Shown: in pieces, positions 20,364-58,050 of the stretch
Layout: each line of letters opens with the position of its first letter
How positions within the stretch are numbered: position 1 is the stretch's first letter
NCBI GenBank assembly: GCA_002841295.1
Contig: PHEU01000004.1
Coordinates: 1 to 64,000, forward strand
Length of the DNA stretch: 64,000 bases
Direction of reading: 5' to 3'
DNA from: Actinobacteria bacterium HGW-Actinobacteria-6
Lineage (GTDB): Bacteria > Actinomycetota > Coriobacteriia > Anaerosomatales > Anaerosomataceae
Position numbers and translations under genes: made by a program
The notes under the pieces: model-generated
What the model was told of the DNA's origin: nothing
The model's input: the letters and a program-made list of their open reading frames with translations, nothing else
The model's database searches: none

Positions 20364-20369
20364 TACAAT
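20364..20369 (+). promoter_or_regulatory. Candidate -10 box upstream of hom
   Basis: TACAAT lies 53 nt before the hom start codon. The hexamer 17 bp further upstream is CTGGCT, a poor -35, so the assignment rests on the -10 alone. Confidence 0.3.
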
Positions 20370-20421
20370 GGACAGACCGCGCGCTAACCCTGCGTGGCGG
20401 TTCGGATTCCAGGAGGACTTC

Positions 20422-21708
20422 ATGCGTACAGTTCGTGTCGGACTCATCGGCCTAGGTACTGTCGGTTCTGGCGTCGTCGATATCCTTCGTCGGCATCGGG
20501 CGGACTTCGTCACGCGCGCCGGTGTCGATATCGAGCTCACGCGTTTTGCGGATCGCAACGAGGCACGCTTCAAGGAGCTTGGTCTCCCCGCCGAGGCATG
20601 CACGACTGATGCGGCGGACGTGCTCGGCGACCCGGACGTCGATGTTGTCATCGAGCTCATCGGTGGAACGGGGATCGCCCGCGACGTCGTTCTCGGCGCG
20701 CTGTCGGCCGGCAAGAGCGTTGTCACCGCGAACAAGGCGCTCATGGCCACGCATGGCCGAGAGGTGATGGACGCGGCTGATACGCACGGCGTCGACATCC
20801 TGTTCGAGGCGGCGGTCGGCGGCGGAATCCCGATCATCGGGCCGCTCAAGCACTCTCTTGTAAGCAACGAGATCACGGCCGTCTACGGTATCGTCAACGG
20901 CACAACCAACTACATGCTCACTCGTATGGCCGAGGACGGCCTCGACTACGACGCCGCACTTGCAGAGGCGCAGGAGCGTGGATTCGCCGAGGCTGACCCT
21001 ACAGCTGACGTTGATGGTCTAGACGCCGCTGCAAAGATCGCGATTCTCTCGTCGATCGCGTTCAACTCGCGTGTGACGTTCGCCCAGGTGCCGGTTGAAG
21101 GCATCCGGTCACTCTCTCCTGAGGACATTTCCTACGCCGCCGAGATGGGCTACACCATCAAGCTCATCGCCATCGCACGCCGTGCCGAGGGCGGGATCGA
21201 CGTTCGCGTTCACCCGACCATGATTCGCGAGGAGCATCCACTCGCGAAGGTCTCCGGCGTCTACAACGCGATCTACGTCGTCGGCGATTCAGTCGGCGAG
21301 ACTATGTTCTTCGGCGAAGGTGCGGGATCGCTTCCTGCCGCCTCGGCGGTCGTTGGTGACGTGATCGAGGTGGCGCGACATATCCAGCGGGGCTGCCTGG
21401 CGCTCGTCGGCTGCACGTGCCACGAAGAGCTGGCAGTGCGCGACCTCGGTGAGCTTGAGACCGAGTACTACGTTCGTTTGCTTGTTCGTGACGAGCCCGG
21501 TGTGCTTGCCGCAGTTGCGAGCATCTTCGGTGAGCACGGCGTCTCGATTGCATCCGTCATCCAGAAACGTGCGCTGGTCGCGGGCGCGGAGATCGTGTAC
21601 GCGACTCACCGCGCGTCCGAGCGGGCTGTTCGCGAGGCGCTAGCTGAAATCGATTCGCTAGCAGTCGTCGATGTGGTTGAGTCGGTTATCCGCGTAGAGG
21701 AGCTGTGA
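20422..21708 (+). CDS. hom: Homoserine dehydrogenase
   Basis: A 428-aa NAD(P)-dependent enzyme that reduces aspartate semialdehyde to homoserine. It has the Rossmann GLGTVGSG at the N-terminus, the segment FEAAVGGGIPIIGPLK with the catalytic region, and a C-terminal ACT domain (about 350-428) typical of threonine-feedback-inhibited enzymes. ATG at 20422 follows AGGAGG with 5-nt spacing. Upstream in-frame ATG codons lack ribosome sites. The last base pairs overlap the thrB GTG. Confidence 0.96.
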   Translation: MRTVRVGLIGLGTVGSGVVDILRRHRADFVTRAGVDIELTRFADRNEARFKELGLPAEACTTDAADVLGDPDVDVVIELIGGTGIARDVVLGALSAGKSVVTANKALMATHGREVMDAADTHGVDILFEAAVGGGIPIIGPLKHSLVSNEITAVYGIVNGTTNYMLTRMAEDGLDYDAALAEAQERGFAEADPTADVDGLDAAAKIAILSSIAFNSRVTFAQVPVEGIRSLSPEDISYAAEMGYTIKLIAIARRAEGGIDVRVHPTMIREEHPLAKVSGVYNAIYVVGDSVGETMFFGEGAGSLPAASAVVGDVIEVARHIQRGCLALVGCTCHEELAVRDLGELETEYYVRLLVRDEPGVLAAVASIFGEHGVSIASVIQKRALVAGAEIVYATHRASERAVREALAEIDSLAVVDVVESVIRVEEL

Positions 21709-22616
21709 CGCTTACCGTGGCCGCGCGCGTTCGTGTTCCCGCAACATCTGCCAATCTCGGCCCCGGATACGACTCATTCGGCCTGGCGCTTGCGCTCTAC
21801 GACGTCTTTGACGCCGAGCCCGCCGAGACCTGGCGCGTTGAGCTCGTCGGCGAAGGGGAGGGCATCCTGTCGACCGGCGAGGACAATCTGGTCGTCCGTG
21901 CCATGAGGCGCGTGTTCGCCGAGGTTGGTTACTCTGGTGCCGCGATCGTGCGCTGCGACAACGGCATCCCGGTCGGACGTGGGCTGGGCTCCTCGGCAGC
22001 AGCTATCGTCGGGGGACTGTTGCTGGGTGACATCATCGCCGGTGTGGGGCTAGCTCCCGAGCGAATCTTCGAACTAGCGTCGGAGCTGGAGGGCCATCCC
22101 GACAACGTTGCCGCCGCGATCTTCGGCGGCTTCACGATGTGCTGGCGCGACGGCGGCGTGCCGCGTATGGTGCGCATTGAGCCTGGTGGTGGTCTTGCCG
22201 CTGTCGTTGCCGTGAGTGAGGCAAGCCTGTCCACCGTTGAAGCCCGAGAGGCGTTGCCGGACTCCGTCCCGCATGCAGACGCAGCTTTCAGCGCCGGGCG
22301 CGCAGGGCTTCTCTCGGCAGGCATCACGCTTGGTAGGGGCGACCTCATCACGACTGGCCTTTCCGATCGACTTCATGAGCCGTATCGGGAGCACCTCATG
22401 CCGGACATCGCGGCAACGCGCAGTGCGCTCATTTCGGCAGGTGCAACGGGGGCGGTGCTCTCCGGCGCAGGCCCCACCGTGCTCGGCTTGCTCGCTGCCG
22501 AGAGTGACGAGGCTGCACTTCGACTCGCAGGCGAGGTCGTCGACCGCGTCGGGGCATTGCCCGGGCGCCAGACCTTCGCATTCAGCGTCGATCGTGACGG
22601 AGCCGAAGTACACTGA
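21705..22616 (+). CDS. thrB: Homoserine kinase
   Basis: A 303-aa GHMP-family kinase that phosphorylates homoserine for threonine synthesis. The substrate loop VPATSANLGPGYDSFGLAL and the ATP-binding GHMP motif PVGRGLGSSAAA are clear; a third motif SGAGPTVLGL lies near the C-terminus. The GTG start overlaps the hom stop (GTGA). Threonine synthase is not adjacent. Confidence 0.96.
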   Translation: MTLTVAARVRVPATSANLGPGYDSFGLALALYDVFDAEPAETWRVELVGEGEGILSTGEDNLVVRAMRRVFAEVGYSGAAIVRCDNGIPVGRGLGSSAAAIVGGLLLGDIIAGVGLAPERIFELASELEGHPDNVAAAIFGGFTMCWRDGGVPRMVRIEPGGGLAAVVAVSEASLSTVEAREALPDSVPHADAAFSAGRAGLLSAGITLGRGDLITTGLSDRLHEPYREHLMPDIAATRSALISAGATGAVLSGAGPTVLGLLAAESDEAALRLAGEVVDRVGALPGRQTFAFSVDRDGAEVH

Positions 22617-22633
22617 TGCCCGGGAGGTGTGAG

Positions 22634-24040
22634 GTGCCGGCTGCGATAACGGGGGACGCGAACAGCACGCGACTGCCTTCGCTTCACACTGTGATTCTTG
22701 CGCTGTGTATCGTGGCGGCAGCCGTCACTGGCGCGTATCTTTCCCAGTCGGGCCTTCAGTGGCCAAGTGGATACGTGTTGCTGCCGGCGACGATCGCGGT
22801 CGTGCTCGCTGCTCTTGCGCTCACAAAGCCCGATGTGGGGCTTATCTTGCTGCTCGTCGCGATTCCGCTCTTCGATTTTGCCACCCTAGGGCCGGCTGCA
22901 GCTCCCTTCACCGCCGCTCACGTGTTGCTCGTCGCGACGATTCTCGGCTGGCTTGCCCGCGTCGTACGCGACCGGGGCGAGACGCTTCCGGCACCGACGT
23001 GGCTTCTTGGCGGCCTCTCGCTCCTGGTTGTTGCAGGACTTGGCTCGATGATCGCCTCGCTTGCCCCCGCCACAACCGCCTTCAACACCTTCCGCTTGTT
23101 GACGCTCCTGCTGCTATCGGCGGTCGTGATGTGGCGCGCATCAACTCCCAAACGCGCACATGAACTCGTCGTTTGGCTCGTCTGGATAGCAGTGGCGCTC
23201 GTCGGTGTGGAAGTGCTGCAGTATCTCGTACCGGGCATCGGAATCGGTCGTATCGCTACCCAAGGTCTTGAGTCATCCGCACTGCTCGTGCGACCCGCAG
23301 TCTTCTTCCTTGACCCGAACTTCCTTGCTGGTTATCTATCAGCGGCCGCATTGGTGTGCTTCGCAATGCTCGTGCGGAGCCGCAGGTGGATGGAGGTCGT
23401 GGGTTGGGGAGTACCCGGCGCGGTCACTGCTGGCGGCATGCTCCTCACCTTCTCGCGCTCGGCGTGGGTCGGTTTCGCCGTCGGTGCGGTGCTCGTGTTG
23501 CTGACCGCGCCCGCCAAGCGGCGCAAGTGGCTCATCATCGTTACGGTTGCACTCGCGTTCGCAGCGATACCGTTCCTGCCCTCCACGGTCACCGATCGGG
23601 TCGCCACGCTGTTCAATCCGCAGTCTGTGAACTCGCTCTCAACGCGCTACCTGATGATCGTCTCAAGCGTCGCGATGCTCGGACGCTACTGGCTCACGGG
23701 CACCGGACTTGGTGCCTTCGAGCTCGCCTACCCATCATACCGACAGCCCGGGGCGCTCGCCCGTATCCTGCATCCGCATCAGCTATTCCTTTCGCTGTGG
23801 GTTGAGATGGGGTTGCTCGGCCTGCTTGCTGAGTTGGTCATATTCGCCGGCATAGGCGTTGCATGGTTCAAGATCCATCGCCGAGGCTACCCTGGCCTGA
23901 GCGTCGCCGTGCTCGTTGCGGCGGTCGCGTTGGTCGTTGAGTCGTTCTTCCAGTACTATCTGTTCTTCGAGTACCTCTGGCTGTTCTTGGCACTTCTGGC
24001 AGCAGTATCGGTCCATCGCGAGGAGGTCTCCGGTGCCTGA
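22634..24040 (+). CDS. O-antigen ligase/polymerase-like membrane protein (copy 1)
   Basis: A 468-aa polytopic protein with about ten helices and the Wzy_C/RfaL-type conserved loop SLSTRYLMIVSSVAMLGRYWLTGTGLGAFELAYPSY, where R and H residues bind lipid-linked glycans. Its role would be joining or polymerising repeat units outside the membrane. The GTG at 22634 has GGGAGG 6 nt upstream; an ATG at 22616 that overlaps the thrB stop (TGATG) is an alternative. It is followed by a coupled Wzz-like gene. A clear paralogue is encoded at 59375-60763, with the same downstream partner. Confidence 0.85.
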   Translation: MPAAITGDANSTRLPSLHTVILALCIVAAAVTGAYLSQSGLQWPSGYVLLPATIAVVLAALALTKPDVGLILLLVAIPLFDFATLGPAAAPFTAAHVLLVATILGWLARVVRDRGETLPAPTWLLGGLSLLVVAGLGSMIASLAPATTAFNTFRLLTLLLLSAVVMWRASTPKRAHELVVWLVWIAVALVGVEVLQYLVPGIGIGRIATQGLESSALLVRPAVFFLDPNFLAGYLSAAALVCFAMLVRSRRWMEVVGWGVPGAVTAGGMLLTFSRSAWVGFAVGAVLVLLTAPAKRRKWLIIVTVALAFAAIPFLPSTVTDRVATLFNPQSVNSLSTRYLMIVSSVAMLGRYWLTGTGLGAFELAYPSYRQPGALARILHPHQLFLSLWVEMGLLGLLAELVIFAGIGVAWFKIHRRGYPGLSVAVLVAAVALVVESFFQYYLFFEYLWLFLALLAAVSVHREEVSGA

Positions 24041-24806
24041 GCATCACCACCCCACGTTTCTGGAAGCGGTCCGCCGAGAGTGGTGGATTCCGCTCACAGT
24101 CATGCTGCTGGCGGGCCTGATCTCCGCTGCGGTATCCTCAGCAAACCCTGAACCACTCTACGAAGGCACGGCGCTTCTGAGCGTCGACTCGCCGACGCTG
24201 TCAAAATTCCCTGACCTGCCGAGAGTCGACTACATGCTTCGCGAGATCACAGGGGATGAGTTCGCCTCGGTCATTGCCAGCAGGACGCTGGTCGCGAGCG
24301 ATACGATTCTGGCCGAGCTGCGTGCGTCCACTCGCGACGATCCGCCGCGCCAGCTCGTCATCACGTTCCGCTCGTCTGATAAGGCCGAGGCCTCGACCGT
24401 GACATCGGCTGCAGCCGGATACGCCGCCGTCAGAGCCGCAGAGCTTGGTGGCAAGGAGATCTATGAGCTTCAGCGGCGTGTGACCGAGACCCAGCGCGCC
24501 CTCAAAGAAGTGCAGGGAATCCGCTCAGAAGCAGGCCGAAATGCCGACGAGACGTTCAGGTTGTCGTCAGCGGGTACGCAGTGGGAGATGCGTATGCGTC
24601 TGTATGAGGACTCGCTCGCGCTGCGAACACTCCGAAATGCCTACTACTACAACGGGAATCTTGACGTGCAAGACGTCGCGCCGGTGCGACGCAGGGGAGC
24701 AACCATCTTAGGTGCGCTCATCTTCGGATTGGTGCTCGGGCTCGTGATAGCCGTGTTCCGGGAAGCGCTGCTTTCGAGGCCGCCGAGGCGCTCTGTAGCC
24801 GAATAG
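24033..24806 (+). CDS. Wzz-like chain-length determinant protein (copy 1)
   Basis: A 257-aa protein with an N-terminal helix (about 20-38), a periplasm-like coiled middle and a C-terminal helix (about 226-247). This is the Wzz/PCP arrangement. No BY-kinase domain is attached. It should set the length of the glycan made with the preceding ligase or polymerase. The GTG start at 24033 has AGGAGG 6 nt upstream and overlaps the previous stop (GTGCCTGA). The primary sequence is divergent, so the assignment rests on topology and context. Confidence 0.7.
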   Translation: MPEHHHPTFLEAVRREWWIPLTVMLLAGLISAAVSSANPEPLYEGTALLSVDSPTLSKFPDLPRVDYMLREITGDEFASVIASRTLVASDTILAELRASTRDDPPRQLVITFRSSDKAEASTVTSAAAGYAAVRAAELGGKEIYELQRRVTETQRALKEVQGIRSEAGRNADETFRLSSAGTQWEMRMRLYEDSLALRTLRNAYYYNGNLDVQDVAPVRRRGATILGALIFGLVLGLVIAVFREALLSRPPRRSVAE

Positions 24807-24925: not shown

Positions 24926-25717
24926 ATGAGCGACGCCAAGCCATTCGTCATCGCGCAGATATCCGATCTGCACTGCGGCTCGCAGTATCACATCCCGAGC
25001 CTGGCCACTCGCGTCATCGATGAAATCAACGACTTGCAGCCTGACGTGCTGGTTGTGACCGGCGACCTTACGGACATGGGGTTTCGGCAGGAATTCAAGG
25101 CGGCGAAGAATCTCATCACTCGCATGAACGTCGAGCACAAGATGGTTCTTCTCGGCAACCACGACGCCCGCAACGTTGGAGACATGCACTTCGAGGAGCT
25201 GTTCGGGGCGCGCTCGACCGAGCTCAGGTTGCCTGGCGTGCGTATCCTCGGGCTTGACTCATCTGAGCCAGACCTTGATGGCGGGCGCGTAGGTCGCGAG
25301 CGGTACAGGTGGATCGAGGAACGCTTCTCCGATCCCGATGAGTTCAAGATCGTGTGCGTGCATCACCACCTACTTCCGGTTCCGGGCACCGGTCGTGAGC
25401 GAAACATCGTCTTTGACGCTGGCGACTTGCTGCGCGTGCTCACGACGAGCGGCTGCAACATGGTTCTCTGCGGTCACAAGCATGTTCCGCATGTGTGGCG
25501 GCTGGAGAGCATGGTTGTCGTCAACGCAGGTACTGCGTGCTCGTACCGGCTCCGCGGCAAGACACAGGCTTCCTACAACATCATCGAGGTCTACCCTGAT
25601 CGCGTTCGGATCGTGCTCAAGCACCCGTTCGGCGACCCGGAGCCGGTCGCTGACTTCGAGCGGACACCGGCTCGGGAGTGTCTGTGGCATCCAGCTTCGG
25701 GAGGTGAAGCGCTGTGA
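24926..25717 (+). CDS. Calcineurin-like metallophosphoesterase (CpdA/ICC-type)
   Basis: A 263-aa binuclear-metal phosphoesterase. All metal-ligand blocks are present: D14-x-H16 (SDLH), GDLTD with D47, GNHD with H79, the histidine run HHH at 146-148 and GHKH at 183-186. The order and spacing resemble class III cyclic-nucleotide phosphodiesterases. It is the first gene of a coupled series: its stop overlaps the start of the cyclic 2,3-diphosphoglycerate synthetase gene (GTGA). From that context its substrate could be cyclic 2,3-diphosphoglycerate, but cAMP, other phosphodiesters or lipid phosphates cannot be excluded. GGAGGA precedes the ATG. Confidence 0.9.
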   Translation: MSDAKPFVIAQISDLHCGSQYHIPSLATRVIDEINDLQPDVLVVTGDLTDMGFRQEFKAAKNLITRMNVEHKMVLLGNHDARNVGDMHFEELFGARSTELRLPGVRILGLDSSEPDLDGGRVGRERYRWIEERFSDPDEFKIVCVHHHLLPVPGTGRERNIVFDAGDLLRVLTTSGCNMVLCGHKHVPHVWRLESMVVVNAGTACSYRLRGKTQASYNIIEVYPDRVRIVLKHPFGDPEPVADFERTPARECLWHPASGGEAL

Positions 25718-27054
25718 GTACCGTTGTTGCGCTGATTGACGGAGAGCACTACCCGCCGGTCGTTCGTGCCGCACTCGCGGCGCTCGGCGCCGAATTTGAC
25801 ATCGTGACCGCCGCATTCATCGGCGGCACTGAAAAGGTGGACGCCTCGGCGGAAGATGCATACGGTGTCCCGGTCGTCTTTGCTGCCACCGCCGAGGAGG
25901 CCCTGAAGATCGCAATCGAGCGCTACGGCCCGCGTGCGGTCGTGGATCTCTCGGATGAGCCTGTGGTGAGCTCTGCCGCGCGCTTCCGACTCGCATCGAT
26001 AGCGCTTGGTGCGGGCGTCTCTTATCGCGGTTCGGATTTTCTGTTCACGCCGCCTTGCCCCAAGCTTGAGCTGCGTACGCCGACACTTGCTGTCATCGGA
26101 ACAGGCAAGCGCGTGGGCAAGACGGGTTTCTCGGCATACATGGCCCGGTACCTGAAGGCGAGCGGTCGCAACGTCGTCGTCGTGGCAATGGGCCGGGGCG
26201 GACCCTCCGATCCTGAGCTCATCAGGGGCGACGAGGTCGCACTGTCGACCGAGGACCTACTCGCACTTGCGGCGCAAGGCAAGCATGCTTCCTCAGACAA
26301 CTACGAAGATGCGGTAATGAGCCGCGTGGCGACGGTAGGGTGTCGGCGCTGCGGCGGTGGTATGGCGGGCGATACGTTCTTCAGCAACGTCCCCGAAGGC
26401 GCACGTCTCGCAGACGGCCTCGGGATGGACATCGTCATGCTTGAGGGCTCGGGAGCAGCGATTCCGCCGGTGAAGGCCAATGCGACCGTTCTCGTCATCG
26501 GGGCGGCGCAGGGCCCCGGCTACGTGCACGATTACTTTGGTCCCTTCAGGTTGGCGCGCGCGGATGCCGTCATTCTTGCGGGTGCCGAGGAGCCCGTGGC
26601 TTCTCTTGTTGAAGTCGAGGCAATGCTCGCGGCGATTGCAATTCAGCGCCCCGACCTTCCCATCGCGTGCATCGGGTTTCGACCACTCCCACTGGAATCG
26701 GTAGAGGGGAAGCGTGTGTTCTTCGCCACGACGGCGCCGCCAGCCCTGTTGCCCAAATTGGTCGCATACCTTGAGGCCGAGCAGGGCTGCACGGTCGTGG
26801 CTGCGAGCGCACATCTGTCTAATCGGTCCTTGTTGCGTGCCGATCTTGATGCCGCAGCCGGCACCTTCGACGTGCTCTTGAGTGAACTCAAGGCGGCAGC
26901 GATCGATGTGGTCGCAGCTGCAGGCGTGCAGGCGGGCGTCCCAACGGTTCTGTGTGACAACGTACCGATCTCACTCGGCGGCATGCCGGTTGATGAAGTC
27001 ATCGAGATGTCCGTTGACCTCGCGCTCAAGCGCGGAAGCACGAGGAGCGAATGA
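25714..27054 (+). CDS. Cyclic 2,3-diphosphoglycerate synthetase
   Basis: A 446-aa cytoplasmic enzyme that matches the archaeal enzyme making the intramolecular pyrophosphate of 2,3-diphosphoglycerate at the cost of ATP. Recognisable blocks are the N-terminal ALIDGEHYPPVVRAAL, FIGGTEKVD, and an ATP-binding loop G129-TGKRVGKT-137 followed by MGRGGPSDPE. A CRRCGGG cysteine pair (C210, C213) and DIVMLEGSGAAIPP follow. Length agrees with the archaeal proteins (about 460 aa). The GTG start at 25714 overlaps the phosphoesterase stop. The next gene encodes the kinase that makes its substrate, which strongly supports the assignment. The identification is from remembered family sequence, not a search. 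Confidence 0.82.
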   Translation: MSTVVALIDGEHYPPVVRAALAALGAEFDIVTAAFIGGTEKVDASAEDAYGVPVVFAATAEEALKIAIERYGPRAVVDLSDEPVVSSAARFRLASIALGAGVSYRGSDFLFTPPCPKLELRTPTLAVIGTGKRVGKTGFSAYMARYLKASGRNVVVVAMGRGGPSDPELIRGDEVALSTEDLLALAAQGKHASSDNYEDAVMSRVATVGCRRCGGGMAGDTFFSNVPEGARLADGLGMDIVMLEGSGAAIPPVKANATVLVIGAAQGPGYVHDYFGPFRLARADAVILAGAEEPVASLVEVEAMLAAIAIQRPDLPIACIGFRPLPLESVEGKRVFFATTAPPALLPKLVAYLEAEQGCTVVAASAHLSNRSLLRADLDAAAGTFDVLLSELKAAAIDVVAAAGVQAGVPTVLCDNVPISLGGMPVDEVIEMSVDLALKRGSTRSE

Positions 27055-28004
27055 TGCCGGAACAGAACTCGCCGATTCTCATCAAGGACGAGAAGCACGG
27101 CCTGCCCTACAGCAAAGGACTGATGGCACAGTCCTTCACAGCGACCGGTCTGTCGCCTGCGCGGGCATACCTCGCGGCACAGCGGATCCAAGATGAGATG
27201 CGTCAGCGCGCCTTGCGCGAGGTTTCGCTTGAAGAGCTGCAAGACATGGCAGTTGCCGTCCTCGAGGAGCAGGCCGGGCCAGAATATGCCCGTCGCTACA
27301 TGAAGCTCCGGGAGCTCGCGAACCTCGATCGGCCGCTCGTGATCCTCATCGGCGGTACCACTGGTGTTGGCAAGTCGACCATCGCAACGGAGATTGCGCA
27401 CCGGCTTGGGGTCACCCGTATTGTATCTACGGATTCCATTCGTGAGGTAATGCGTGGTATCTTTACGCGGGACCTCATGCCAGCGATCTACGAAAGCTCC
27501 TTTAACGCGTGGCGCGGACTGAGGGTTCCCGTCCCCCACGGTGCAAATCCTGTCATCGTCGGTTTCCGCGAGCAGACCGCAGCCGTCATCACCGGCATCA
27601 GGTCTCTCATCGAGCGGGCTTCTGTCGAGGGCGAGAGTCTTGTCATCGAGGGCGTTCACATGGTTCCGGGTTACATCGAGCCTTCCCAGTTCAAGAATGC
27701 GTCGGTCGTGCAGCTGCTTGTTGCGGTCGACGATGAAGAGGCCCACCGGAGTCACTTCTACATCAGGGAAGTCCAAACGGACGGCACTCGCCCGTTTGAG
27801 AAATATAGGGCCAATTTTGGGAACATCCGGCTGCTCGGCAGGTATATCGAAGACCTTGCTGTCGAGCACGGTATCCCGATCGTTCACAGCCACCAACTCG
27901 ACCGAACGGTTGCCGAGGTGCTTGAACTCGTTGTCAACGTGGCGATTCGCGGAGACGAGCGCATGTCGTCTACGCAGTCGGGCACAGCGACAGAAGGAGA
28001 GTAA
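27054..28004 (+). CDS. 2-phosphoglycerate kinase with N-terminal ATP-cone
   Basis: A 316-aa kinase expected to phosphorylate 2-phosphoglycerate to 2,3-diphosphoglycerate. Residues about 7-90 look like an ATP-cone (ILIKDEKHGLPYSKGLMAQSFTATGLSPARAY), a nucleotide-sensing module also found in ribonucleotide reductases. The kinase domain has a P-loop at about 100-109 (GGTTGVGKST) and a following IVSTDSIREVMR segment. The ATG at 27054 has AGGAG 6 nt upstream; the adjacent ATG at 27051 overlaps the synthetase stop as ATGA. Immediately downstream are transaldolase and rho. The ATP-cone suggests the pathway senses cellular energy charge, which is an inference. Confidence 0.82.
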   Translation: MPEQNSPILIKDEKHGLPYSKGLMAQSFTATGLSPARAYLAAQRIQDEMRQRALREVSLEELQDMAVAVLEEQAGPEYARRYMKLRELANLDRPLVILIGGTTGVGKSTIATEIAHRLGVTRIVSTDSIREVMRGIFTRDLMPAIYESSFNAWRGLRVPVPHGANPVIVGFREQTAAVITGIRSLIERASVEGESLVIEGVHMVPGYIEPSQFKNASVVQLLVAVDDEEAHRSHFYIREVQTDGTRPFEKYRANFGNIRLLGRYIEDLAVEHGIPIVHSHQLDRTVAEVLELVVNVAIRGDERMSSTQSGTATEGE

Positions 28005-37929: not shown

Positions 37930-38382
37930 ATGCCGCGCCCATCCTGGGACGAGTACTTCATGGCGATCGCCACACAGGTGGCCGGCCGCTCCACATGTAT
38001 GCGCCGCGCTACCGGAGCCGTGCTCGTCAAGGACAAGCGCATCCTGTCAACCGGCTACAACGGAGTTCCCTCCGGCCTGGAGCATTGCGAGGTAGTGGGC
38101 TGCCTGCGCGAACAGCGTGGCATCGCCTCGGGCTCGCATCATGAGCTCTGTCGCGGAATACATGCCGAGCAGAACGCGGTCATCCAGGCTGCCAGGCACG
38201 GTATCGCTATCGACGGCGCGACGGTTTACTGCACCCATCAGCCGTGCGTGCTCTGCGCGAAGATCCTGCTCAACTCCGGTGTGAGAGACATCATCTACCG
38301 CGAGGCGTACCCCGATCCGCTTTCTGCCGAGCTTCTTGCCGAAGCCGGCGTCGTGCCCCGCTGTGTCGGCGGCGACGACTGA
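37930..38382 (+). CDS. Deoxycytidylate deaminase (ComEB-like)
   Basis: A 150-aa zinc-dependent deaminase. The zinc/catalytic motif HAEQNAV and the PCVLC cysteine pair ([13 protein letters not shown]) are present, with the dCMP-deaminase-type insert [13 protein letters not shown]. It would supply dUMP to ThyX. Its stop shares one base with the next gene start (TGATG). Confidence 0.94.
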
Positions 38383-39455
38383 TGGGTCTTTTGCAGTATG
38401 GAATCGTCGCGCTCGTGGCCGGGCTCACGACACTCGCGCTCACACCAGTGGTGCGAGTGATCGGCATCCGGTGGGGAATCGTCTCGCGTCCCGGAGGGCG
38501 GCATGTCCACAAAGGTGTCATTCCGCGTATCGGCGGCGTCGCAATGTTCATCGGATTTGGAGTGGCGGTGCTCGTCGAGTACATAGGCGAGCATTATTGG
38601 GGATGGCAGCCTGCACTCACACGACTTGGCAAGCCGGCGGTGGGCGTTCTCCTTGGCATCGTGATCGTGTTCGTCATCGGCATGCTCGACGACATCCTGG
38701 ACCTCAAGCCGGGACAGAAGTTCCTCGGCCAATTGGCAGCAGCGGGTGTTGTGATCGCCTTCGGCGTCAAGATTGCGTTCATCAGCAATCCCTTTGGCGG
38801 CGGGCTCATACTGCTCGGGGTGCTCGCGTATCCGATAACCCTGTTCTGGATCGTCGGTTTCGCAAACGTCATCAATCTGATCGACGGACTCGACGGTCTT
38901 GCCGCCGGCGTTACCGCCATTGCGTCCATGAGCTTCTTGTTGCTCGCTGTGCAGAGCAACGTCTTCGCCGCTGGCGCACTTGCAGCAGCGCTCATCGGGG
39001 CCTGTCTGGGGTTCCTCCGCTACAACTTCCACCCGGCCTCCATCTTCATGGGGGACTCGGGTGCGTTGTTCCTCGGTTTCACGCTCGCGTGCATCTCGCT
39101 TCTGGGCGTGATGAAGTCCGTCGCCGCAATCACACTGGTGATACCGCTGCTGATCATCGGTGTGCCGATCTTCGACACATTCTCGGCGATCATCCGCCGC
39201 AGCCGCCACGGGCAGCCCATTCAGGTTGCCGACAAGGGCCACATCCATCACCGCCTCCTTGGGCGCGGATTCAATCAGCGGCAAACCGTGCTCATCATCT
39301 ACGTGTGGTCGATAGCCCTCGCGTTTGGTGGGTATTCGACCCGTTGGGCGCCGCCAGTGATTCGTCTGATCACTTTGGTTGCGTTGGCTGTTCTTTCGGG
39401 CCTTATGGCGTACTGGCTTGGCCTGTTTGAGGCCGCGCATCACGACGACGAGTAG
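38382..39455 (+). CDS. Undecaprenyl-phosphate N-acetylhexosamine-1-phosphate transferase (WecA/TagO-like)
   Basis: A 357-aa polytopic enzyme (about ten helices) of the MraY/WecA superfamily that starts glycan synthesis on undecaprenyl phosphate. Visible motifs: the Mg-binding GMLDDILDLKPGQKFLGQ, the catalytic NLIDGLDGLAAG, FMGDSGALFLG and the cytoplasmic HIHHRLL loop characteristic of WecA/TagO rather than MraY. The ATG overlaps the deaminase stop. The polysaccharide genes after 48 kb could use its product. The sugar donor (UDP-GlcNAc expected) cannot be fixed from sequence. Confidence 0.92.
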   Translation: MGLLQYGIVALVAGLTTLALTPVVRVIGIRWGIVSRPGGRHVHKGVIPRIGGVAMFIGFGVAVLVEYIGEHYWGWQPALTRLGKPAVGVLLGIVIVFVIGMLDDILDLKPGQKFLGQLAAAGVVIAFGVKIAFISNPFGGGLILLGVLAYPITLFWIVGFANVINLIDGLDGLAAGVTAIASMSFLLLAVQSNVFAAGALAAALIGACLGFLRYNFHPASIFMGDSGALFLGFTLACISLLGVMKSVAAITLVIPLLIIGVPIFDTFSAIIRRSRHGQPIQVADKGHIHHRLLGRGFNQRQTVLIIYVWSIALAFGGYSTRWAPPVIRLITLVALAVLSGLMAYWLGLFEAAHHDDE

Positions 39456-48421: not shown

Positions 48422-49717
48422 ATGGGACTTCTCGAACGCATTGAGGACGGCAGCGCGGTCTTTGGAGTGGTCGGTCTCGGCTATGTCGGTCTGCCGCTTG
48501 CCGTTGAGATGGCGAAGGCAGGTCACAAGGTCATCGGTCTCGACATCTCCGAGGGCAAGATCGCCGAGATTATCGCCGGTCGAAGCTACATCCCCGATGT
48601 CCCGTCTGCAGAGCTCGCTTCGCTCGTTGACGCGGGGCTTATCGTTGCGACTACCGATTTCTCTCAGTCAGCGCTCGCGGACGCTATCGCGATCTGCGTT
48701 CCGACGCCTCTTGACGACATGAAGGCGCCCGATACGTCGTACATGGAGAAGGCAGCCGCGGCGGTTACCCCGTATCTCCACCAGGACGTGCTCATCACGC
48801 TCGAGTCCACCACATACCCTGGCACCACCGAGGAGATCATCCAGCCGATCCTCGAAGCTGGTGGGCTCAAAGTCGGGCGTGACCTGTTCCTCGCGTTCTC
48901 GCCCGAGCGCGTCGACCCGGGCAACCCGGTCTACCAGACGAAGAACACGCCCAAGGTCGTCGGGGGAGTCACCCCCGAATGCACCAAGGCTGCCGTTGCG
49001 CTCTACAGCCGCTTCATCGATACCGTGGTCCCGGTCTCATCGACCCGTGCCGCCGAGATGACCAAGCTGCTTGAGAACATCTTCCGCTCGGTGAACATCG
49101 CGCTCATGAACGAGCTTCTGCAGCTGTGTGAGCGCATGGACATCAATCTCTGGGACGTCGTAGACGCTGCCAAGACAAAGCCCTTCGGCTACATGCCGTT
49201 TTATCCCGGACCGGGTCTCGGTGGGCATTGCATCCCGATCGATCCGTTCTACCTGTCATGGAAGGCCCGTGAGTACGACTTCCACACCGAGTTCATCGAG
49301 CTCTCGGGCAAGGTCAATGAAGCAATGCCCTACTACGTTGTGAAGCGCATGATGGAAGCACTCAACCAGCAGCGCAAGCCGCTCAGTGGGAGCAAGGTCA
49401 TCGTCCTCGGAGTGGCATACAAGGCCAACATCGACGATATGCGCGAGTCCCCGGCAATCAAGGTCGCGGCTCTGCTGCGCGAGAACGGTGCGGATATTGC
49501 GTACCACGACCCATACGTGCCAACGTTTGTCGTTGACGGCGTCCCCGTGCCTCAGACGGAGTTCACCGCCGAGACGGTCGCTAGCGCCGATGCGGTCCTG
49601 GTCGTGACCGATCACAGCGGAGTTGACTATCAAATGGTCGCCGAGAAGGCGCAGTGCGTGCTAGATACGCGCAATGCACTCAAGGCGTTCTCCGGGGAGA
49701 ACATCTTCAGGCTCTAG
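48422..49717 (+). CDS. UDP-N-acetyl-sugar 6-dehydrogenase (WbpA/WecC-type nucleotide sugar dehydrogenase)
   Basis: A 431-aa enzyme that oxidises C6 of a UDP-sugar in two NAD-dependent steps. It has the Rossmann motif GVVGLGYVGLPLAVEMAKAGHKVIG, the catalytic C270 in LGGHCIPIDPFYLSWK, and ANIDDMRESPA. HCIPIDPFYL and the sequence around it are typical of UDP-GlcNAc or UDP-ManNAc dehydrogenases rather than of UDP-glucose dehydrogenase (see the separate gene at 52498-53811). GGGAGG lies 12 nt before the ATG. The product would be an N-acetylated hexosaminuronic acid for the surface glycan. Confidence 0.9.
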   Translation: MGLLERIEDGSAVFGVVGLGYVGLPLAVEMAKAGHKVIGLDISEGKIAEIIAGRSYIPDVPSAELASLVDAGLIVATTDFSQSALADAIAICVPTPLDDMKAPDTSYMEKAAAAVTPYLHQDVLITLESTTYPGTTEEIIQPILEAGGLKVGRDLFLAFSPERVDPGNPVYQTKNTPKVVGGVTPECTKAAVALYSRFIDTVVPVSSTRAAEMTKLLENIFRSVNIALMNELLQLCERMDINLWDVVDAAKTKPFGYMPFYPGPGLGGHCIPIDPFYLSWKAREYDFHTEFIELSGKVNEAMPYYVVKRMMEALNQQRKPLSGSKVIVLGVAYKANIDDMRESPAIKVAALLRENGADIAYHDPYVPTFVVDGVPVPQTEFTAETVASADAVLVVTDHSGVDYQMVAEKAQCVLDTRNALKAFSGENIFRL

Positions 49718-49862
49718 CCGCAGGCGCGTGCGCTTACGGCCAAGCAGGAAACGGACACGTTACGGTCAGGGCACCCGCAGTCCAGCCGTGCAATAATCGC
49801 CTGCATCGTTTCACACATAGGCACAATCTGCGGCTTCGTCGCATGCGACTTTGGTGGAGGAC

Positions 49863-51263
49863 ATGGAAGAGCGCTCGTCAGGCCGCAGGCAGGCCGCCCG
49901 AAAGACCCGTCCGGCAGCACGATCAACGCGTCACTCGCGTGGAATCGTCGAGCCGGCACCTCGTATGCGCATCCATCAGCAGCGTCGCAGGCGCGCAGCT
50001 AAGCGGTGGGCGATAGGCATTTCCGTCGCCTTGCTCGTGATGATTGCAGTGGGTGCGGCATGGGGCTACTTCTGGCTCCGCTCGGTCAATTCAACCATGA
50101 GCAAAGTCGCTCTCGCGGACTCAGGTCTGGGCGATGCGCTCACCAAGCGCAGTACCAAACCCGAGGAACCATTCACGATTCTACTGACTGGTACCGATCG
50201 CCGACCGGGCGAGACCGTGGCCCGCGCGGATACGATCATCATTGCCAAGGTCGATCCGAAGCAGAAGAAGATATGGATGCTCTCCATCCCGCGTGATACC
50301 CGCGTGAACATTCCGGGCCACGGCTACGGCAAGATCAATGCTGCTATGTTCTACGGCGGCGCGGATGGCGGAAACGCGCTGCTCGTGAAGACGGTCACCG
50401 AGTTCACGGGTATTCCGATCAACTACTACATGGACGTTAGCTTCACCGGCTTTAAGAAGGCGATTGATACGCTTGGCGGTATCTGGATCGACGTGGACGT
50501 TGAAATCGACGACTGGAAGGCTGCCAGCGGAACCCCGGACCACCGCTCGAAGTATATCGCTCCCGGATACCAGCTCCTTGATGGCGAGCACGCGCTCACG
50601 TACGTTCGCAGTCGGGACTTCCCTGATGCTGACTTCACCCGCATGAAGCATCAGCAGACGTTCTTCAAGGCGCTCGCCAAACAGATGACCAAGCCCGAGA
50701 GCTTCTTCAAGATTCCCAGCCTGGTCAATAGCGTCTCAAAGTACGTGACGACGACGATGCCGATTGGAGATATCGTCGCTACTGCGCAGGCGCTTCAAGG
50801 TATCGAAGGCGACAACATTCAGACAGCAACAGTGATCGGCGAGTGGCGCTCACCGTACGTGTGGACCGACGAGGAGCGTAAGGCGGAGCTCGTCAAAGCG
50901 CTCACCGAGGGTGGCAGCTTCGATGGCACAGCGACCCCGGCGGCTGAGATTGTGCCGTCCTCGGTCACAGTCACGATCCGAAACGGCGCAGGCGAGGAGG
51001 GCGTTGCCTCGGCGGCATCCTCGATACTTACCGCTGCCGGATTCAAGATCGGTGAAGTAGGCAATGCGAACCAGTTCGTCTATGACAAGACACTGGTCGT
51101 GTACAAAGATGACACCATGAAGGCGGCGGCCCAGCTCGTTGCCTCGAAGTTGCCCACGGGCAGTGCCATAGCGAGCCGTGGGATGTACGAGTTCACCACG
51201 GACGTGTTGGTGGTTGTCGGTAAGGACTGGAAGGCGGCCACAGCCGCAACGACGACCAGGTAA
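49863..51263 (+). CDS. LytR-CpsA-Psr (LCP) family glycan ligase with LytR_C domain
   Basis: A 466-aa membrane-anchored protein. An arginine-rich cytoplasmic N-terminus (about 1-48), one helix (about 49-72), an LCP catalytic domain (about 100-260, with ILLTGTDRR, RADTIIIAKVD and SIPRDTRVNIPGHGYGKINAA), and a C-terminal LytR_C domain (about 350-450) are seen. LCP enzymes move undecaprenyl-linked glycans onto peptidoglycan. It sits amid sugar-nucleotide and glycosyltransferase genes. ATG at 49863 is very close to GGAGG; GTG 49854 and TTG 49851 are alternatives. It converges on the next gene. Confidence 0.92.
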   Translation: MEERSSGRRQAARKTRPAARSTRHSRGIVEPAPRMRIHQQRRRRAAKRWAIGISVALLVMIAVGAAWGYFWLRSVNSTMSKVALADSGLGDALTKRSTKPEEPFTILLTGTDRRPGETVARADTIIIAKVDPKQKKIWMLSIPRDTRVNIPGHGYGKINAAMFYGGADGGNALLVKTVTEFTGIPINYYMDVSFTGFKKAIDTLGGIWIDVDVEIDDWKAASGTPDHRSKYIAPGYQLLDGEHALTYVRSRDFPDADFTRMKHQQTFFKALAKQMTKPESFFKIPSLVNSVSKYVTTTMPIGDIVATAQALQGIEGDNIQTATVIGEWRSPYVWTDEERKAELVKALTEGGSFDGTATPAAEIVPSSVTVTIRNGAGEEGVASAASSILTAAGFKIGEVGNANQFVYDKTLVVYKDDTMKAAAQLVASKLPTGSAIASRGMYEFTTDVLVVVGKDWKAATAATTTR

Positions 51264-51266: not shown

Positions 51267-52487
51267 CTAAGAGCGGGAGGCCTGCTCCAGCACGTCGAGC
51301 AGGCGGCTTGCCTGTAGCGTGCGGTCAAACCGCTCCTCGGCAAGGCGGCGTGCATTCAATCCCATGCGCATGAGGGCTTCTTCGTCGGCAGCCAGGCGCT
51401 CGATGGTGTTCGCGAGCGCGATTCCATCGTCAGCGGGCACATACGCCCCGCAGTCGGCCTCTTCTACAATATCCTTGGTCCAGCCGGCTGAGTTGACGAT
51501 CATCGGTCGCCCGGAGGCAAGACCATCGAAGAACTTGTTCGGCGAGTTGGTCGCAAGGATCGGCACGTCAGCGAAGAGCGTCATGAGGATATCCGCTGAG
51601 CGTGTCAGCACCGGAACATCCTTCTTCGGGAGTGAACCCACGAGGCGTACGTTCGGAAGGTCGCCGACTGCAGCTGTGAGTGCTGGCATCGACTTTCCGT
51701 CGCCCGCTATGAGGAAGACGATGTCGTCTCGGCCGCGCTCGCGGAGCGTGCGGGCTGCCTCAGGCACCATTCCTTCGACGTCGTTCGAGGGACCGATGGC
51801 CCCCGCGTAGCCGACGACGAACATATCGGGGCCGATATCGTGACTCTCAAGAAAGTCGGTGTCTTTCTCGCCGGGATGGAACAGATCCAGATCCGAGCAG
51901 TTTGGGATCATGTGGACATGCTCGGGAGAGACACCCTCGGCGACGACACCCTCGGCCATGCCGGGGGAGAGCGCGACTACGTCGGCTGACTGGCTGTACA
52001 AGAAACGCTCGAGCCGCTTGGCCACTCGTGAGAGGATGCCGGTGCGCTCAAGGGCACCCATCTGGATCGCTGCTTCGGGCCACAAGTCGCGAACCTCGAA
52101 GACGAAAGGCGTGCGGCGCATCGTAGCGGCCGCCCAGCCGGGGATTCCGACAGTGAGTGGGGTGGACGTGGCAAATACAACGTCGTGCTTGCCCGCCGTT
52201 GCTGCAAGCCACGTGGCACCGAGAGTGAACAGGATGAACGACCACATCCGGCGTCCGTAGCCCATGTAGTTGGAGTACTTGACGCGTACCGAGCGGATGC
52301 GGATGCCCTCGATGTCGCCATCGGTGAATAGGTGGTCCTCGTAGCCATCAGGCAGTCGCGAGGAGCTTGTGATGATGGTGACCTCGTGGCCCTCGGCAAC
52401 CCAGCGCCGTGCGAACTCGTACGACCGAATCAGGCCGAGCGATGATTCGCGCGTAGCGAAGAACTGATGGACGTACAGGATTCGCAC
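51267..52487 (-). CDS. Family-4-like glycosyltransferase
   Basis: A 406-aa GT-B fold glycosyltransferase. The N-terminal MRILYVHQFFATRE...SYEFARRWVAEGHEVTIITS and the EVRDLWPEAA motif resemble WbuB/colanic-type transferases that act on N-acetylated sugars. The acceptor/donor C-terminal part shows GYAGAIGPSND and SPNKFFDGLASGRPMIV with the usual glutamate position replaced by Asp. The GTG at 52487 is chosen because GGGAG lies 5 nt upstream, overlapping the ugd stop; a TTG at 52535 would extend it but has no ribosome site. Specificity is unknown. Confidence 0.88.
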   Translation of the reverse strand: MRILYVHQFFATRESSLGLIRSYEFARRWVAEGHEVTIITSSSRLPDGYEDHLFTDGDIEGIRIRSVRVKYSNYMGYGRRMWSFILFTLGATWLAATAGKHDVVFATSTPLTVGIPGWAAATMRRTPFVFEVRDLWPEAAIQMGALERTGILSRVAKRLERFLYSQSADVVALSPGMAEGVVAEGVSPEHVHMIPNCSDLDLFHPGEKDTDFLESHDIGPDMFVVGYAGAIGPSNDVEGMVPEAARTLRERGRDDIVFLIAGDGKSMPALTAAVGDLPNVRLVGSLPKKDVPVLTRSADILMTLFADVPILATNSPNKFFDGLASGRPMIVNSAGWTKDIVEEADCGAYVPADDGIALANTIERLAADEEALMRMGLNARRLAEERFDRTLQASRLLDVLEQASRS

Positions 52488-52497
52488 GGGGCTCCCA

Positions 52498-53811
52498 TCA
52501 GGCGAGATCGTCGCGGTGCTGACCTTCTCGGCCAACGGCCATGTAGGTCAGGCCAGCCGAGCGAACCGCTTCAGGATCCAGACAGTTGCGTCCGTCGAAG
52601 ATGATGCCCGGCCCGGTCATGACGGAGCGCACGCGCGCCCAGTCAAGCTCAGTGAACTCAACCCAATCAGTCACAACGACAGCTGCCGAGGCACCCTCAA
52701 GCGCTCGCCAGACGTCGGTGACGCGAGCCGCACCGGGAATCGCTATATCGGCGGCGATTGGATCGTAGATGCGAATCGCGGCACCCTGCTCGGCGAGAAG
52801 GGGCACGATATCGAGTGCCGGGGACTCGCGAACGTCGTCGGTGTCGGGCTTGAATGCCAGGCCGAGGATGGCGACCGAGCGCTCGTGGAGGTCGGGCAGT
52901 GCGCGCATCACGTGCACGACCGGCAGCAGACGCTGGCGATTATTCACCTCGATGACCGACTTGAGAAGCGTGAACTGGTAGCCGTTCAGAGTCGCGATGA
53001 AGTCGAGCGCGCGGGTGTCCTTCGGGAAGCAGGACCCGCCGTAGCCGATACCGGCATTGAGGAACTGTGAGCCGATACGCTTGTCGAGGCCGATGCCGCG
53101 CGACACCGAATCGATGTCAGCGCCGATGCAGTCGCAGAGGTTCGCAATCTCGTTGATGAACGAGATCTTGGTTGAAAGGAATGCATTGCTCGCGTACTTG
53201 ATGGTCTCGGCGCTGGCAACGTCGGTTTCAACGAGCGGTGCCTCGATGTCGTCGTAGAGTTCACGCATGAGTACCAGATCAGCCTCATCGCTCGCGCCGA
53301 GAACGATGCGGTCTGTCTTGAACCAGTCCTCAAGCGCCTTGCCCTCGCGCAGGAACTCCGGATTGGAGATGTAGCCGATACGCACGTCCGCCTGGTCCAG
53401 GTAGCGCTCACGGAGCGAGGCTCCGGTGCCCATCGGGACCGTGGACTTCATCACGAGGGTGAAGGGGCGATCAGCTGCGGCGGCAAGCGCCTCGACGACC
53501 GTGCGTACTTGCGAGAGGTCCGCGGCACCGTTGGGCGCCATCGGGGTTCCGACGGCGACGACGGTGACATCGCCGATAAGATCGCGCCAGCCGCTTTCGG
53601 GCGTCTTGAATGCGAGCGTGCCTTTGTCGCGTCCCGCGATGAGCAGATCCTCGATACCGGGCTCATAAATGGTGCTCTTGCCCGAGATGAGCATGTCTAC
53701 CTTCGCCTGGTCGATATCCACGCATGTGACCTGGTGGCCCGAGTGGGCAAGACAGACGCCGGTGACGAGACCAACATAGCCGGTGCCGACGACCGTGACT
53801 GAGAGTGGCAT
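52498..53811 (-). CDS. UDP-glucose 6-dehydrogenase
   Basis: A 437-aa NAD-dependent enzyme that makes UDP-glucuronate. N-terminal VTVVGTGYVGLVTGVCLAHSGHQVTCVDID, YISNPEFLREG and the catalytic C261 in GYGGSCFPKDTRAL are diagnostic of the UDP-glucose enzyme. GGAGG lies 7 nt before the ATG at 53811. It is the upstream gene of a two-gene minus-strand operon with the glycosyltransferase at 51267. Confidence 0.94.
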   Translation of the reverse strand: MPLSVTVVGTGYVGLVTGVCLAHSGHQVTCVDIDQAKVDMLISGKSTIYEPGIEDLLIAGRDKGTLAFKTPESGWRDLIGDVTVVAVGTPMAPNGAADLSQVRTVVEALAAAADRPFTLVMKSTVPMGTGASLRERYLDQADVRIGYISNPEFLREGKALEDWFKTDRIVLGASDEADLVLMRELYDDIEAPLVETDVASAETIKYASNAFLSTKISFINEIANLCDCIGADIDSVSRGIGLDKRIGSQFLNAGIGYGGSCFPKDTRALDFIATLNGYQFTLLKSVIEVNNRQRLLPVVHVMRALPDLHERSVAILGLAFKPDTDDVRESPALDIVPLLAEQGAAIRIYDPIAADIAIPGAARVTDVWRALEGASAAVVVTDWVEFTELDWARVRSVMTGPGIIFDGRNCLDPEAVRSAGLTYMAVGREGQHRDDLA

Positions 53812-53939
53812 CAGGGAACCTCCGATGAACGATATCGATGTAGAAAAAGCTTGCCACAGGGTATCACAGCAGCGGGTTTGTCGGTGGACCGCGGTCAGTC
53901 GTCGTTGCCGGGCGGCAACTCTCGGCGGATGCATTGTTG

Positions 53940-53968
53940 TTGCCACTATGTACCCTCGCTGCTAAGGT
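53940..53968 (+). promoter_or_regulatory. Candidate promoter for a leaderless transcript
   Basis: TTGCCA (53940-53945) and TAAGGT (53963-53968) are 17 bp apart, and the -10 box ends only 7 nt before the ATG at 53976. Transcription would start at or within one or two bases of the start codon. Confidence 0.45.
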
Positions 53969-53975
53969 TGGCGGC

Positions 53976-55196
53976 ATGAGAATCCTCCAGATCGCTCCAG
54001 TCCCCCGTGAGTTCGGTGGCGTTGACACCGGCGGTATCGCTACTCACGCATGGGGACTCGCAACAAGTCTTTCCGCGCTCGGTCATGAAGTCGCTGTGCT
54101 TGCGCACAATCGCGACCATGGGGAGCCGTGGCCGGAGACGTACAACGGCGTCAAGGTGTATGGAGGACGAAGCTTCGGCGGGTCCGTGCGCGCACGCCGT
54201 CTCATGCACCCGTCTACAGTGAAGGCCGTTCTCGAGGCGCGGCGCACGCTTGGGCCGTCGTGGAAGCTCCGCTGGGTCGCAAGCGCTGTCGCAGCGTGCT
54301 GCGAGACGATCGAGGCATTCAGGCCGGATATCATCCACGTGCATGCCGTCGAGGGGCGCTTCACCGTCGCGCATGCCGCGAACCTGTACGGCGTGCCGAT
54401 CGTAGCGACGGCTCATTCAACGCACTATGTCGAGTTCGTCGAAGACGGCGTCAAGGACGACAACCGTGCTCTCGTCGAGCGCAATCTGCATGACGCGACC
54501 GATGTCATCTTCGTGAGCAAGTGGGTCGCCGAGAGGCACGAGCAGGTCTTCCCTGGTGCGCTCGATCACGCGCACACGGTGATCCTGCCGAATCCGATCG
54601 ACGCATCGGTGTATGCGCCGGTTCCCAGAGCCGCAGCCCGAGAGCGTCTCGGCATGGCTGATGGCGACATCTTCTTGCTGACCCTGGGGAACCTGATTCC
54701 CCGCAAAGACCCGCTCACCTTCATCCGCGCCGTAGGCATCCTGCGCTCGCGAGGCTTGCCCGTGCGCGTCGTCATGGTCGGCTCAGGCCCGCTCAAGGCT
54801 GAGATGGAAGCGTTGATCGCTGAGCTTGCTCTTGGCGACGTCATCCGACTTGAAGGGCACGCTCCGCAAGAGGCGATCAACGACTACTACAGCGCGGCTG
54901 ACGTCTACGTGTTCCCGAGCCTGATGGAGACGTGGGGTCTCGCGGCGGTCGAGGCGATGCTCTGCGGATGCCCCGTCGTAGGTACGTTCGATGTCATGCC
55001 CGAGGTCGTCCCAGAGTATGCGGGCGTCTTCGTGCCCTCGCATGAGCCGGTCGACGTTGCGGCAGGACTCACCGAAGCCATCGAGCGTGATTGGGACAGG
55101 GACGCAATCAGAAGCTTCGCCCTCGGCTATGACTGGAAGACGCAGGTCGGCGGATTCGAGTCGCTGTACCGAGACATCCTGGCGCGTCACCAGTAG
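53976..55196 (+). CDS. Family-4 glycosyltransferase
   Basis: A 406-aa GT-B enzyme. N-terminal MRILQIAPVPREFGGVDTGGIATHAWGLATSLSALGHEV and HVHAVEGRFTVAHA are characteristic, and the C-terminal Glycos_transf_1 domain has FLLTLGNLIPRKDP, FPSLMETWGLAAVEAMLCGCPVVG with the E-x7-E pattern. It uses an activated sugar to extend the lipid-linked glycan. It is divergent from ugd and convergent with the flippase gene, with its stop abutting the flippase stop. No Shine-Dalgarno is apparent. Confidence 0.9.
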   Translation: MRILQIAPVPREFGGVDTGGIATHAWGLATSLSALGHEVAVLAHNRDHGEPWPETYNGVKVYGGRSFGGSVRARRLMHPSTVKAVLEARRTLGPSWKLRWVASAVAACCETIEAFRPDIIHVHAVEGRFTVAHAANLYGVPIVATAHSTHYVEFVEDGVKDDNRALVERNLHDATDVIFVSKWVAERHEQVFPGALDHAHTVILPNPIDASVYAPVPRAAARERLGMADGDIFLLTLGNLIPRKDPLTFIRAVGILRSRGLPVRVVMVGSGPLKAEMEALIAELALGDVIRLEGHAPQEAINDYYSAADVYVFPSLMETWGLAAVEAMLCGCPVVGTFDVMPEVVPEYAGVFVPSHEPVDVAAGLTEAIERDWDRDAIRSFALGYDWKTQVGGFESLYRDILARHQ

Positions 55197-58041: not shown

Positions 58042-58050
58042 ATCTCCTTC

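Follow-up and report, generated by a model that had tools for sequence, protein, structure and literature searches.

Two old paralogous Wzy_C–Wzz gene pairs in an Anaerosomataceae genome, one kept beside thrB and one exchanged within a glycan locus

Introduction

In the Wzx/Wzy pathway, for example with WzyE/WzzE of enterobacterial common antigen (ECA; PMC10030265, Foldseek match 8c0e; PMC sources are cited throughout for part of their text only), a Wzy-type transferase is paired with a protein of the polysaccharide co-polymerase (PCP) fold. Variations on this arrangement are already known: second polymerases away from the main locus in Pseudomonas aeruginosa (the phage-acquired Wzy-beta, PMC4815439) and for the Acinetobacter baumannii capsule (a phage-encoded Wzy, PMC9241936), and two Wzz proteins per cell in Shigella flexneri (WzzB and WzzpHS-2, PMC12004945). 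Gram-positive capsule assembly combines Wzx, Wzy and Wzz with attachment by LytR-CpsA-Psr (LCP) proteins (PMC7831098). Here we analyse two gene pairs of this kind in a 64,000-nucleotide stretch of the genome of Actinobacteria bacterium HGW-Actinobacteria-6 (contig PHEU01000004.1, positions 1 to 64,000; "the window"). Each pair encodes a Wzy_C membrane protein and an overlapping small Wzz/PCP-like protein; one, cassette A, abuts thrB and the other, cassette B, lies in a glycan locus.

The combination of a Wzy-type transferase and a PCP-fold protein is the same as in the Wzx/Wzy pathway, and cassette B likewise lies with a flippase and glycosyltransferases. Unlike WzyE/WzzE, the present genes occur without a lipid A marker, their Wzz proteins are only about 250 residues long and score below the Pfam cut-off, and there are two paralogous cassettes, one of them abutting thrB. 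The second polymerases of P. aeruginosa and A. baumannii are phage-borne, whereas the extra copy here is old, mostly vertical and has its own wzz, and it is the main-locus copy that is exchanged. In S. flexneri the two Wzz proteins compete over the polymerisation of one O-antigen, according to the part of that paper cited; here both Wzz proteins come with a polymerase-like partner gene of their own. The cassette B locus has an LCP gene, as in Gram-positive capsule assembly, but no kinase gene lies beside either cassette in the window, and a kinase-fused Wzz is encoded in a separate locus, C35. Among the titles and abstract openings searched, which included few subscription papers, we found no report of an old Wzy-Wzz paralogue cassette beside thrB together with an exchanged sister cassette in bacteria without a lipid A marker.

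Two gene pairs from one old split

Cassette A consists of ligA (22616..24040, + strand), whose ATG shares one base with the thrB stop codon, the last of that codon, and wzzA (24033..24806, +), which begins with GTG and overlaps ligA by 8 nt; a longer open reading frame (ORF) with a TTG start at 23916 begins within ligA. In cassette B, ligB (59357..60763, +) and wzzB (60760..61509, +) share an ATGA overlap. The original prediction, made from the letters of the window, had described both pairs as a ligase-like gene followed by a coupled Wzz-like gene, and this is confirmed with slightly shifted boundaries (22616-24806 and 59357-61509). The relatedness it claimed for the ligase-like proteins also holds: LigA and LigB are 35% identical over 402 aligned residues (E 3e-70), the alignment being near full length with a common C-terminal FQYYL-FEYLW block, and WzzA and WzzB are 29% identical over 248 residues (E 5e-22). 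LigA (70.4 bits) and LigB (90.7 bits) pass the Wzy_C Pfam cut-off of 31.7 bits. WzzA and WzzB, at 18.8 and 20.5 bits, miss the Wzz cut-off of 25.5 bits; WzzA was assigned through its AlphaFold2 (AF2) model and Foldseek, WzzB through homology to WzzA, its Pfam Wzz score and the Wzz tree. Searched with LigB at E 0.001, the window's genome gives only the two cassette ligases.

A two-ligase profile was run against 119 related genomes, 40 of which matched at E 1e-20 or better; 51 loci were fetched for the ligase matches and their neighbours mapped by tblastn. The ligase family has two recurring addresses, beside hom-thrB and inside glycosyltransferase (GT) loci. All 19 thrB-site rows, LigA among them, form one clade of the 55-row ligase tree with support 100/100 (thrB is on the contig for 17 of them, and L078 and L083, where it lies beyond the contig end, were assigned via their downstream genes), and the 10 thrB-site rows of the 35-row Wzz tree stand together with weaker support (89/77). 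LigA and LigB of one genome are 30-41% identical in 11 of the 11 genomes compared, which gives no hint of recent copying or conversion, and a sister relationship of the window's WzzA and WzzB is rejected (approximately unbiased test, p-AU 4e-34). Judging from these trees, cassettes A and B are old paralogues as whole pairs, split before the sampled families diverged. A module duplication had originally been proposed; that it happened within this lineage is not supported, given the placement of A and B in different clades with counterparts in relatives and the rejected Wzz sisterhood. Monophyly of the GT-site rows is not rejected (p-AU 0.37 for the ligase, 0.33 for Wzz), which is compatible with copying from the GT locus to thrB or the other way round. 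Cassette A has remained in the hom-thrB operon from a time that precedes the diversification of the family, and cassette B sits in a Wzx/Wzy-type glycan locus.

Pairwise alignment and trees had been suggested as the check on the prediction, with separate recruitment as the outcome that would speak against it. The two pairs do not come from different distant families; both fall in one subfamily of the ligase tree, and separate recruitment is rejected.

The distance between the two sites is about 37-46 kb in G000, G003, G004 and G008 and 765 kb in G006, and in other genomes the sites are on separate contigs. In G010, G012, G057 and G030, where cassette A was not detected, 36-48 kb separate the phosphoesterase gene that follows the thrB site from the GT-site ligase. 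The spacing in the window is the distance of two chromosomal sites.

A stable cassette and an exchanged one

The two cassettes behave very differently within the genus. Compared with the window, the same-genus genomes G001, G003 and G004 have 74% identity for ligA, 68-72% for wzzA and 73-74% for thrB (G002 was left out of the ligA comparison because that stretch lies beyond the contig end), and at this level of comparison cassette A tracks its neighbours. For cassette B, the four same-genus genomes (G001-G004) share only 39-42% (ligB) and 27-36% (wzzB) identity with the window, and trees in which ligB or wzzB is held with its same-genus counterparts are rejected (p-AU 2.9e-14 and 1.5e-5, respectively). 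Instead, the window's cassette B groups with other genera (G008, G006, G010 and G013, and for the ligase only G018) and with a genome of another family (G057), with support of 89/91 in the ligase tree and 90/88 in the Wzz tree, neither of them a starred node. Relatives of both glycosyltransferases downstream of cassette B also follow the cassette in G008, G006 and G010; they are found in many GT-site loci besides, including loci with ligases of other branches, and none appeared in the parts of the four same-genus loci that were fetched. Cassette B has been exchanged between lineages, the window's own lineage included. It is not always exchanged, given that between G003 and G004 cassette B is as similar as cassette A (ligase 89% vs 92%). 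Four comparisons of cassette A give a ratio of nonsynonymous to synonymous divergence (dN/dS) of 0.04-0.15, dS exceeding 1 in two of them, and one ligase-only pair gives 0.21; with such low values the genes look constrained.

Candidate active-site residues and the fold of WzzA

Two arginines and a histidine (R226, R281 and H388 in LigA; R219, R274 and H381 in LigB), which we take to be candidate catalytic residues, are invariant in the thrB-site rows both with wzz (10/10) and without it (9/9). The same three are present in all 24 GT-site rows that have letters at these positions and in 11 or 12 of the 12 distant rows. The rows with wzz conserve four other LigA positions (W112, R302, R376 and Y453) that have mostly changed in the nine ligase-only thrB rows, which belong mainly to one clade; G009, which has wzz, differs at R302 and Y453, and L053, a GT-site locus with no wzz, keeps W112, R376 and Y453. 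As a weak lead, these four positions may depend on the Wzz partner.

In the AF2 model of WzzA (mean predicted local distance difference test score, pLDDT, 76), a helix is followed by an alpha/beta domain, a long helical hairpin and a closing helix. Foldseek gives Wzc, WzzE, KpsE and the Wzz from a Wzy-Wzz complex as its best matches in the PDB, with E-values below 0.001 and down to 3e-7 but TM-scores of only about 0.3-0.5. WzzA is thus predicted to have the PCP fold, in which two terminal helices enclose an alpha/beta domain together with a long helical hairpin. By sequence profile, the Wzz family gave five matches among PDB sequences, the best being a phycocyanin (E 0.12) and one of the others a Wzc (E 0.82), and the ligase profiles found no relative there.

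Possible roles of the two cassettes

We read both cassettes as polymerase/co-polymerase modules, B for the variable locus glycan and A for a second, conserved lipid-linked unit, and give this reading about an even chance of being right. Both are read in this way because LigB is the only polymerase (Wzy) candidate within its glycan locus, and LigA shares its length, conserved blocks and type of partner. In each, a Wzy-type membrane transferase would join sugar repeat units carried on undecaprenyl, acting outside the membrane, and chain length would be set by a small Wzz that lacks a kinase. LigB would then polymerise the variable repeat unit of its locus, and LigA a second, more conserved lipid-linked unit made by glycosyltransferases encoded elsewhere; the products would end up on the wall or surface of cells whose envelope has no lipid A, with LCP proteins as one possible route. 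Wzy enzymes are described as highly substrate-specific (PMC12004945). Since cassette A is constant and cassette B and its nearby glycosyltransferases vary within the genus, A more likely serves another, conserved lipid-linked unit, and the comparison leans towards separate lipid-linked substrates for the two cassettes rather than one glycan made in two lengths. A narrower version, by analogy with ECA beside variable O-antigens, would have cassette A polymerise, and regulate the length of, one conserved envelope glycan found throughout the family, as its dedicated module; this is tentative, and we think it clearly less probable than not. If true, the sister cassette would serve a surface glycan that is variable and exchangeable, and cassette A would be maintained in a housekeeping operon.

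A number of observations weigh against two separate polymerase modules. No glycan, flippase, glycosyltransferase or substrate is tied to cassette A. The AF2 model of the ligase is poor (mean pLDDT 48) and was not used for structure searches, and the ligase tree carries a long-branch warning that includes L080, L082 and L083 of the thrB clade. "B absent" here means no match at E 1e-20, and every one of the 27 family genomes searched has at least one Wzy_C protein. The association of Wzz with this ligase family is partly by construction: 32 of the 34 Wzz matches of at least 145 bits in the 119 genomes adjoin a family ligase and the other two are at contig ends, but the Wzz profile was itself built from ligase-adjacent genes, and 17 weaker matches were not counted. 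With that reservation, the Wzz family appears to keep with this ligase family, and at the same threshold no orphan Wzz was found in ligase-only genomes. Cassette A is also dispensable, in whole or in part. The gap between thrB and the phosphoesterase gene was measured in 51 loci (counting L043, a duplicate of L045, and leaving the window aside), in 50 of which hom lies beside thrB, the remaining L108 beginning inside thrB. Thirteen of these junctions are empty (68-140 nt), and nine of the fetched loci have a thrB-site ligase without wzz, so that A can do without its partner gene; seven of these ligases are on one branch and two come from family f11, one of whose loci (L073) also has an SppA gene. 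Two of the seven on that branch, in G014 and G023, are placed differently from the housekeeping genes, which sit nearest lineages with wzz. Cassette A has therefore not been purely vertical, and the placements suggest occasional replacement at the thrB site too. Finally, among 27 genomes (25 of family f1, one of f11 and one of f13), 11 have a thrB-site wzz (G002 via a wzz at the contig end), eight the ligase only and eight neither, and cassette B accompanies thrB-site wzz in 10/11 compared with 5/16 without it (Fisher p 0.005), a pattern that would also fit A acting on the glycan of B.

This co-occurrence is one argument for the strongest alternative, which we regard as unlikely: cassette A would be a second polymerase and length regulator for the repeat unit of cassette B, giving one glycan a second linkage or a second modal length. 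It would also agree with G018, where both sites have a ligase and neither has wzz, and with the main-locus-acting second polymerases and two-length Wzz pairs known in other bacteria, as far as the cited parts of those papers go. The genomes with and without thrB-site wzz, however, provide only four independent pairs, for which a sign test is not significant. G009, moreover, has cassette A with wzz and no second family ligase at E 1e-20, a point tempered by a Wzz match in that genome, weak at 48.9 bits, which lies some 0.3 kb from a further Wzy_C match. The conservation of A beside a cassette B and glycosyltransferases that differ within the genus, and the substrate specificity of Wzy noted above, argue in the same direction.

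Slightly less probable still is that LigA is a true ligase, helped by WzzA, that moves the locus glycan or another one to a final acceptor, for example peptidoglycan or an S-layer protein. The Wzy_C family covers ligases and polymerases alike; ligases tolerate changing polymers, which would fit a conserved A beside a variable locus, and the nine thrB-site ligases without wzz also fit. For WaaL, the recognition information is placed in the first lipid-linked sugar unit in the cited part of PMC7831098. On the other side, LigA shares with LigB, the sole polymerase candidate of its locus, the near full-length alignment, the FQYYL-FEYLW block and a Wzz partner, and neither protein reaches the cut-off of the RfaL model.

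A literal lipopolysaccharide (LPS) ligase of the WaaL/RfaL kind was considered for both proteins and rejected. The lipid A marker LpxC was found in 0 of 17 genomes, in a search whose control was positive in 4 of 14 named genomes, and against the curated NCBIfam RfaL model LigB scores 21.9 bits (cut-off 277) and LigA has no match. With LpxC found in none of the 17 genomes, "O-antigen ligase" is a family label only and neither protein is literally an LPS ligase, which calls for caution with this label in organisms without a lipid A marker.

It is very improbable that cassette A is tied to its operon neighbours, that is to threonine synthesis or the cyclic-2,3-diphosphoglycerate-type genes, and has nothing to do with glycans. 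The cassette does lie between thrB and the phosphoesterase gene in the window and in the nine fetched loci with ligase and wzz that extend to thrB and the phosphoesterase gene alike (including one duplicate record), but its protein families are glycan families and the junction is often occupied otherwise. Nine of the 51 junctions (about 2.3 kb) hold ligase and wzz, seven (1.4-3.9 kb) the ligase without wzz, and 22 (1.1-1.8 kb) another insert, identified by length and eye except in L105 and L117; these two loci of other families have inserts (3807-4790 and 4803-5948, respectively) that are SppA-type signal peptide peptidases by profile. Because it is empty in 13 and otherwise filled in 22 of 51 loci, the junction looks like a tolerant, recurrent insertion point. 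The least probable account, to which we assign next to no chance, is a recent duplication in this genome: the same order, orientation and overlap design within one 64 kb window would suit it, but A and B fall in different clades with counterparts in relatives, and both the Wzz test and the uniformly low A-B ligase identities described above oppose it.

The two cassettes amount to a natural experiment on Wzy and Wzz, with one old paralogue pair stable and the other exchanged in the same cells. Relatives add a third state, a polymerase-like protein without Wzz, which could show a polymerase working without its co-polymerase, and comparison of the three states is what points to W112, R302, R376 and Y453 of LigA as positions that are possibly Wzz-dependent.

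Two further arrangements were seen at or near the sites of this family. In L082 (G023), a large secreted-looking protein with cell-wall-binding-like repeats, as judged by eye, is encoded between the thrB-site ligase and the phosphoesterase gene. In L085, L088, L089 and L090, all of genus g4, the genes of two distantly related Wzy_C proteins lie near each other and point in opposite directions. A search of these four genomes found no Wzz of the family, and their thrB-phosphoesterase junction is empty.

Surroundings of the cassettes and other Wzy_C loci

Cassette A is preceded by hom (20368..21708, +), a homoserine dehydrogenase gene with Pfam Homoserine_dh and ACT domains, and thrB (21705..22616, +), with Pfam GHMP kinase domains. 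No glycan genes are adjacent to it, and wzzA is the only glycan-pathway partner beside ligA. The earlier description of this pair as sitting alone next to thrB is correct in that cassette A abuts thrB, but a run of metallophosphoesterase, cyclic-2,3-diphosphoglycerate-synthetase-like and 2-phosphoglycerate-kinase-like genes (24926..28004, +), which flanks the cassette and is not part of it, starts 119 nt downstream. Scans of cassette A found no promoter (0.7 expected) and three terminator-like sites, against 1.7 expected with an sd of 1.3; the cassette end has none of them.

The other pair, described earlier as lying inside the glycosyltransferase operon, is part of a glycan locus in which cassette B is surrounded by genes for six glycosyltransferases, two UDP-sugar dehydrogenases, an LCP protein and a flippase. 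The locus starts with a UDP-sugar dehydrogenase and the LCP gene (48422..51263, +), followed by a glycosyltransferase and the second UDP-sugar dehydrogenase (51267..53946, -), a glycosyltransferase (53934..55196, +), the Wzx-like flippase (55197..56894, -; Pfam Polysacc_synt), a further glycosyltransferase (56797..57906, -) and one directly before cassette B (58012..59382, +). Two more follow the cassette (61506..63868, +), and ten ORFs scanned downstream of the 64 kb (L133) include no glycosyltransferase. Upstream of the locus, a WecA/GT4-like lipid-carrier sugar-phosphate transferase (38244..39455, +; Pfam Glycos_transf_4) is a possible initiating enzyme. A scan of the window found no fused or adjacent tyrosine kinase of the Wzc or CapAB type in or beside either cassette.

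The window's genome encodes three further Wzy_C proteins above the Pfam cut-off. That on C35 (L135, 5178-14007) belongs to a further polysaccharide locus, which also encodes a flippase, glycosyltransferases, a pyruvyl transferase and a Wzz that carries a fused kinase-type ATPase, and an amidase gene adjoins. The C58 protein has TPR repeats and is encoded beside a Bac_transf sugar transferase, and that on C36 lies near a polysaccharide-synthesis gene and cytochromes; in the latter locus (L137, 6538-10549) the Wzy_C gene adjoins two multihaem cytochrome-like ORFs.

The run of genes downstream of cassette A deserves a remark of its own. Two genes occupy 25714-28004: the first encodes a protein that matches cyclic-2,3-diphosphoglycerate synthetases of solved structure (E 5e-121 and 2e-100 by phmmer), and the one after it is 2-phosphoglycerate-kinase-like (NCBIfam 318 and 307 bits, both below cut-off). 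The phosphoesterase gene lies upstream (24926-25717). A bacterial pathway for cyclic-2,3-diphosphoglycerate would be notable because this solute is described, in the part of PMC10690619 cited, as exclusive to hyperthermophilic methanogens. The phosphoesterase, synthetase-like and kinase-like genes occur together in 38 of the 38 loci of relatives fetched via the phosphoesterase.

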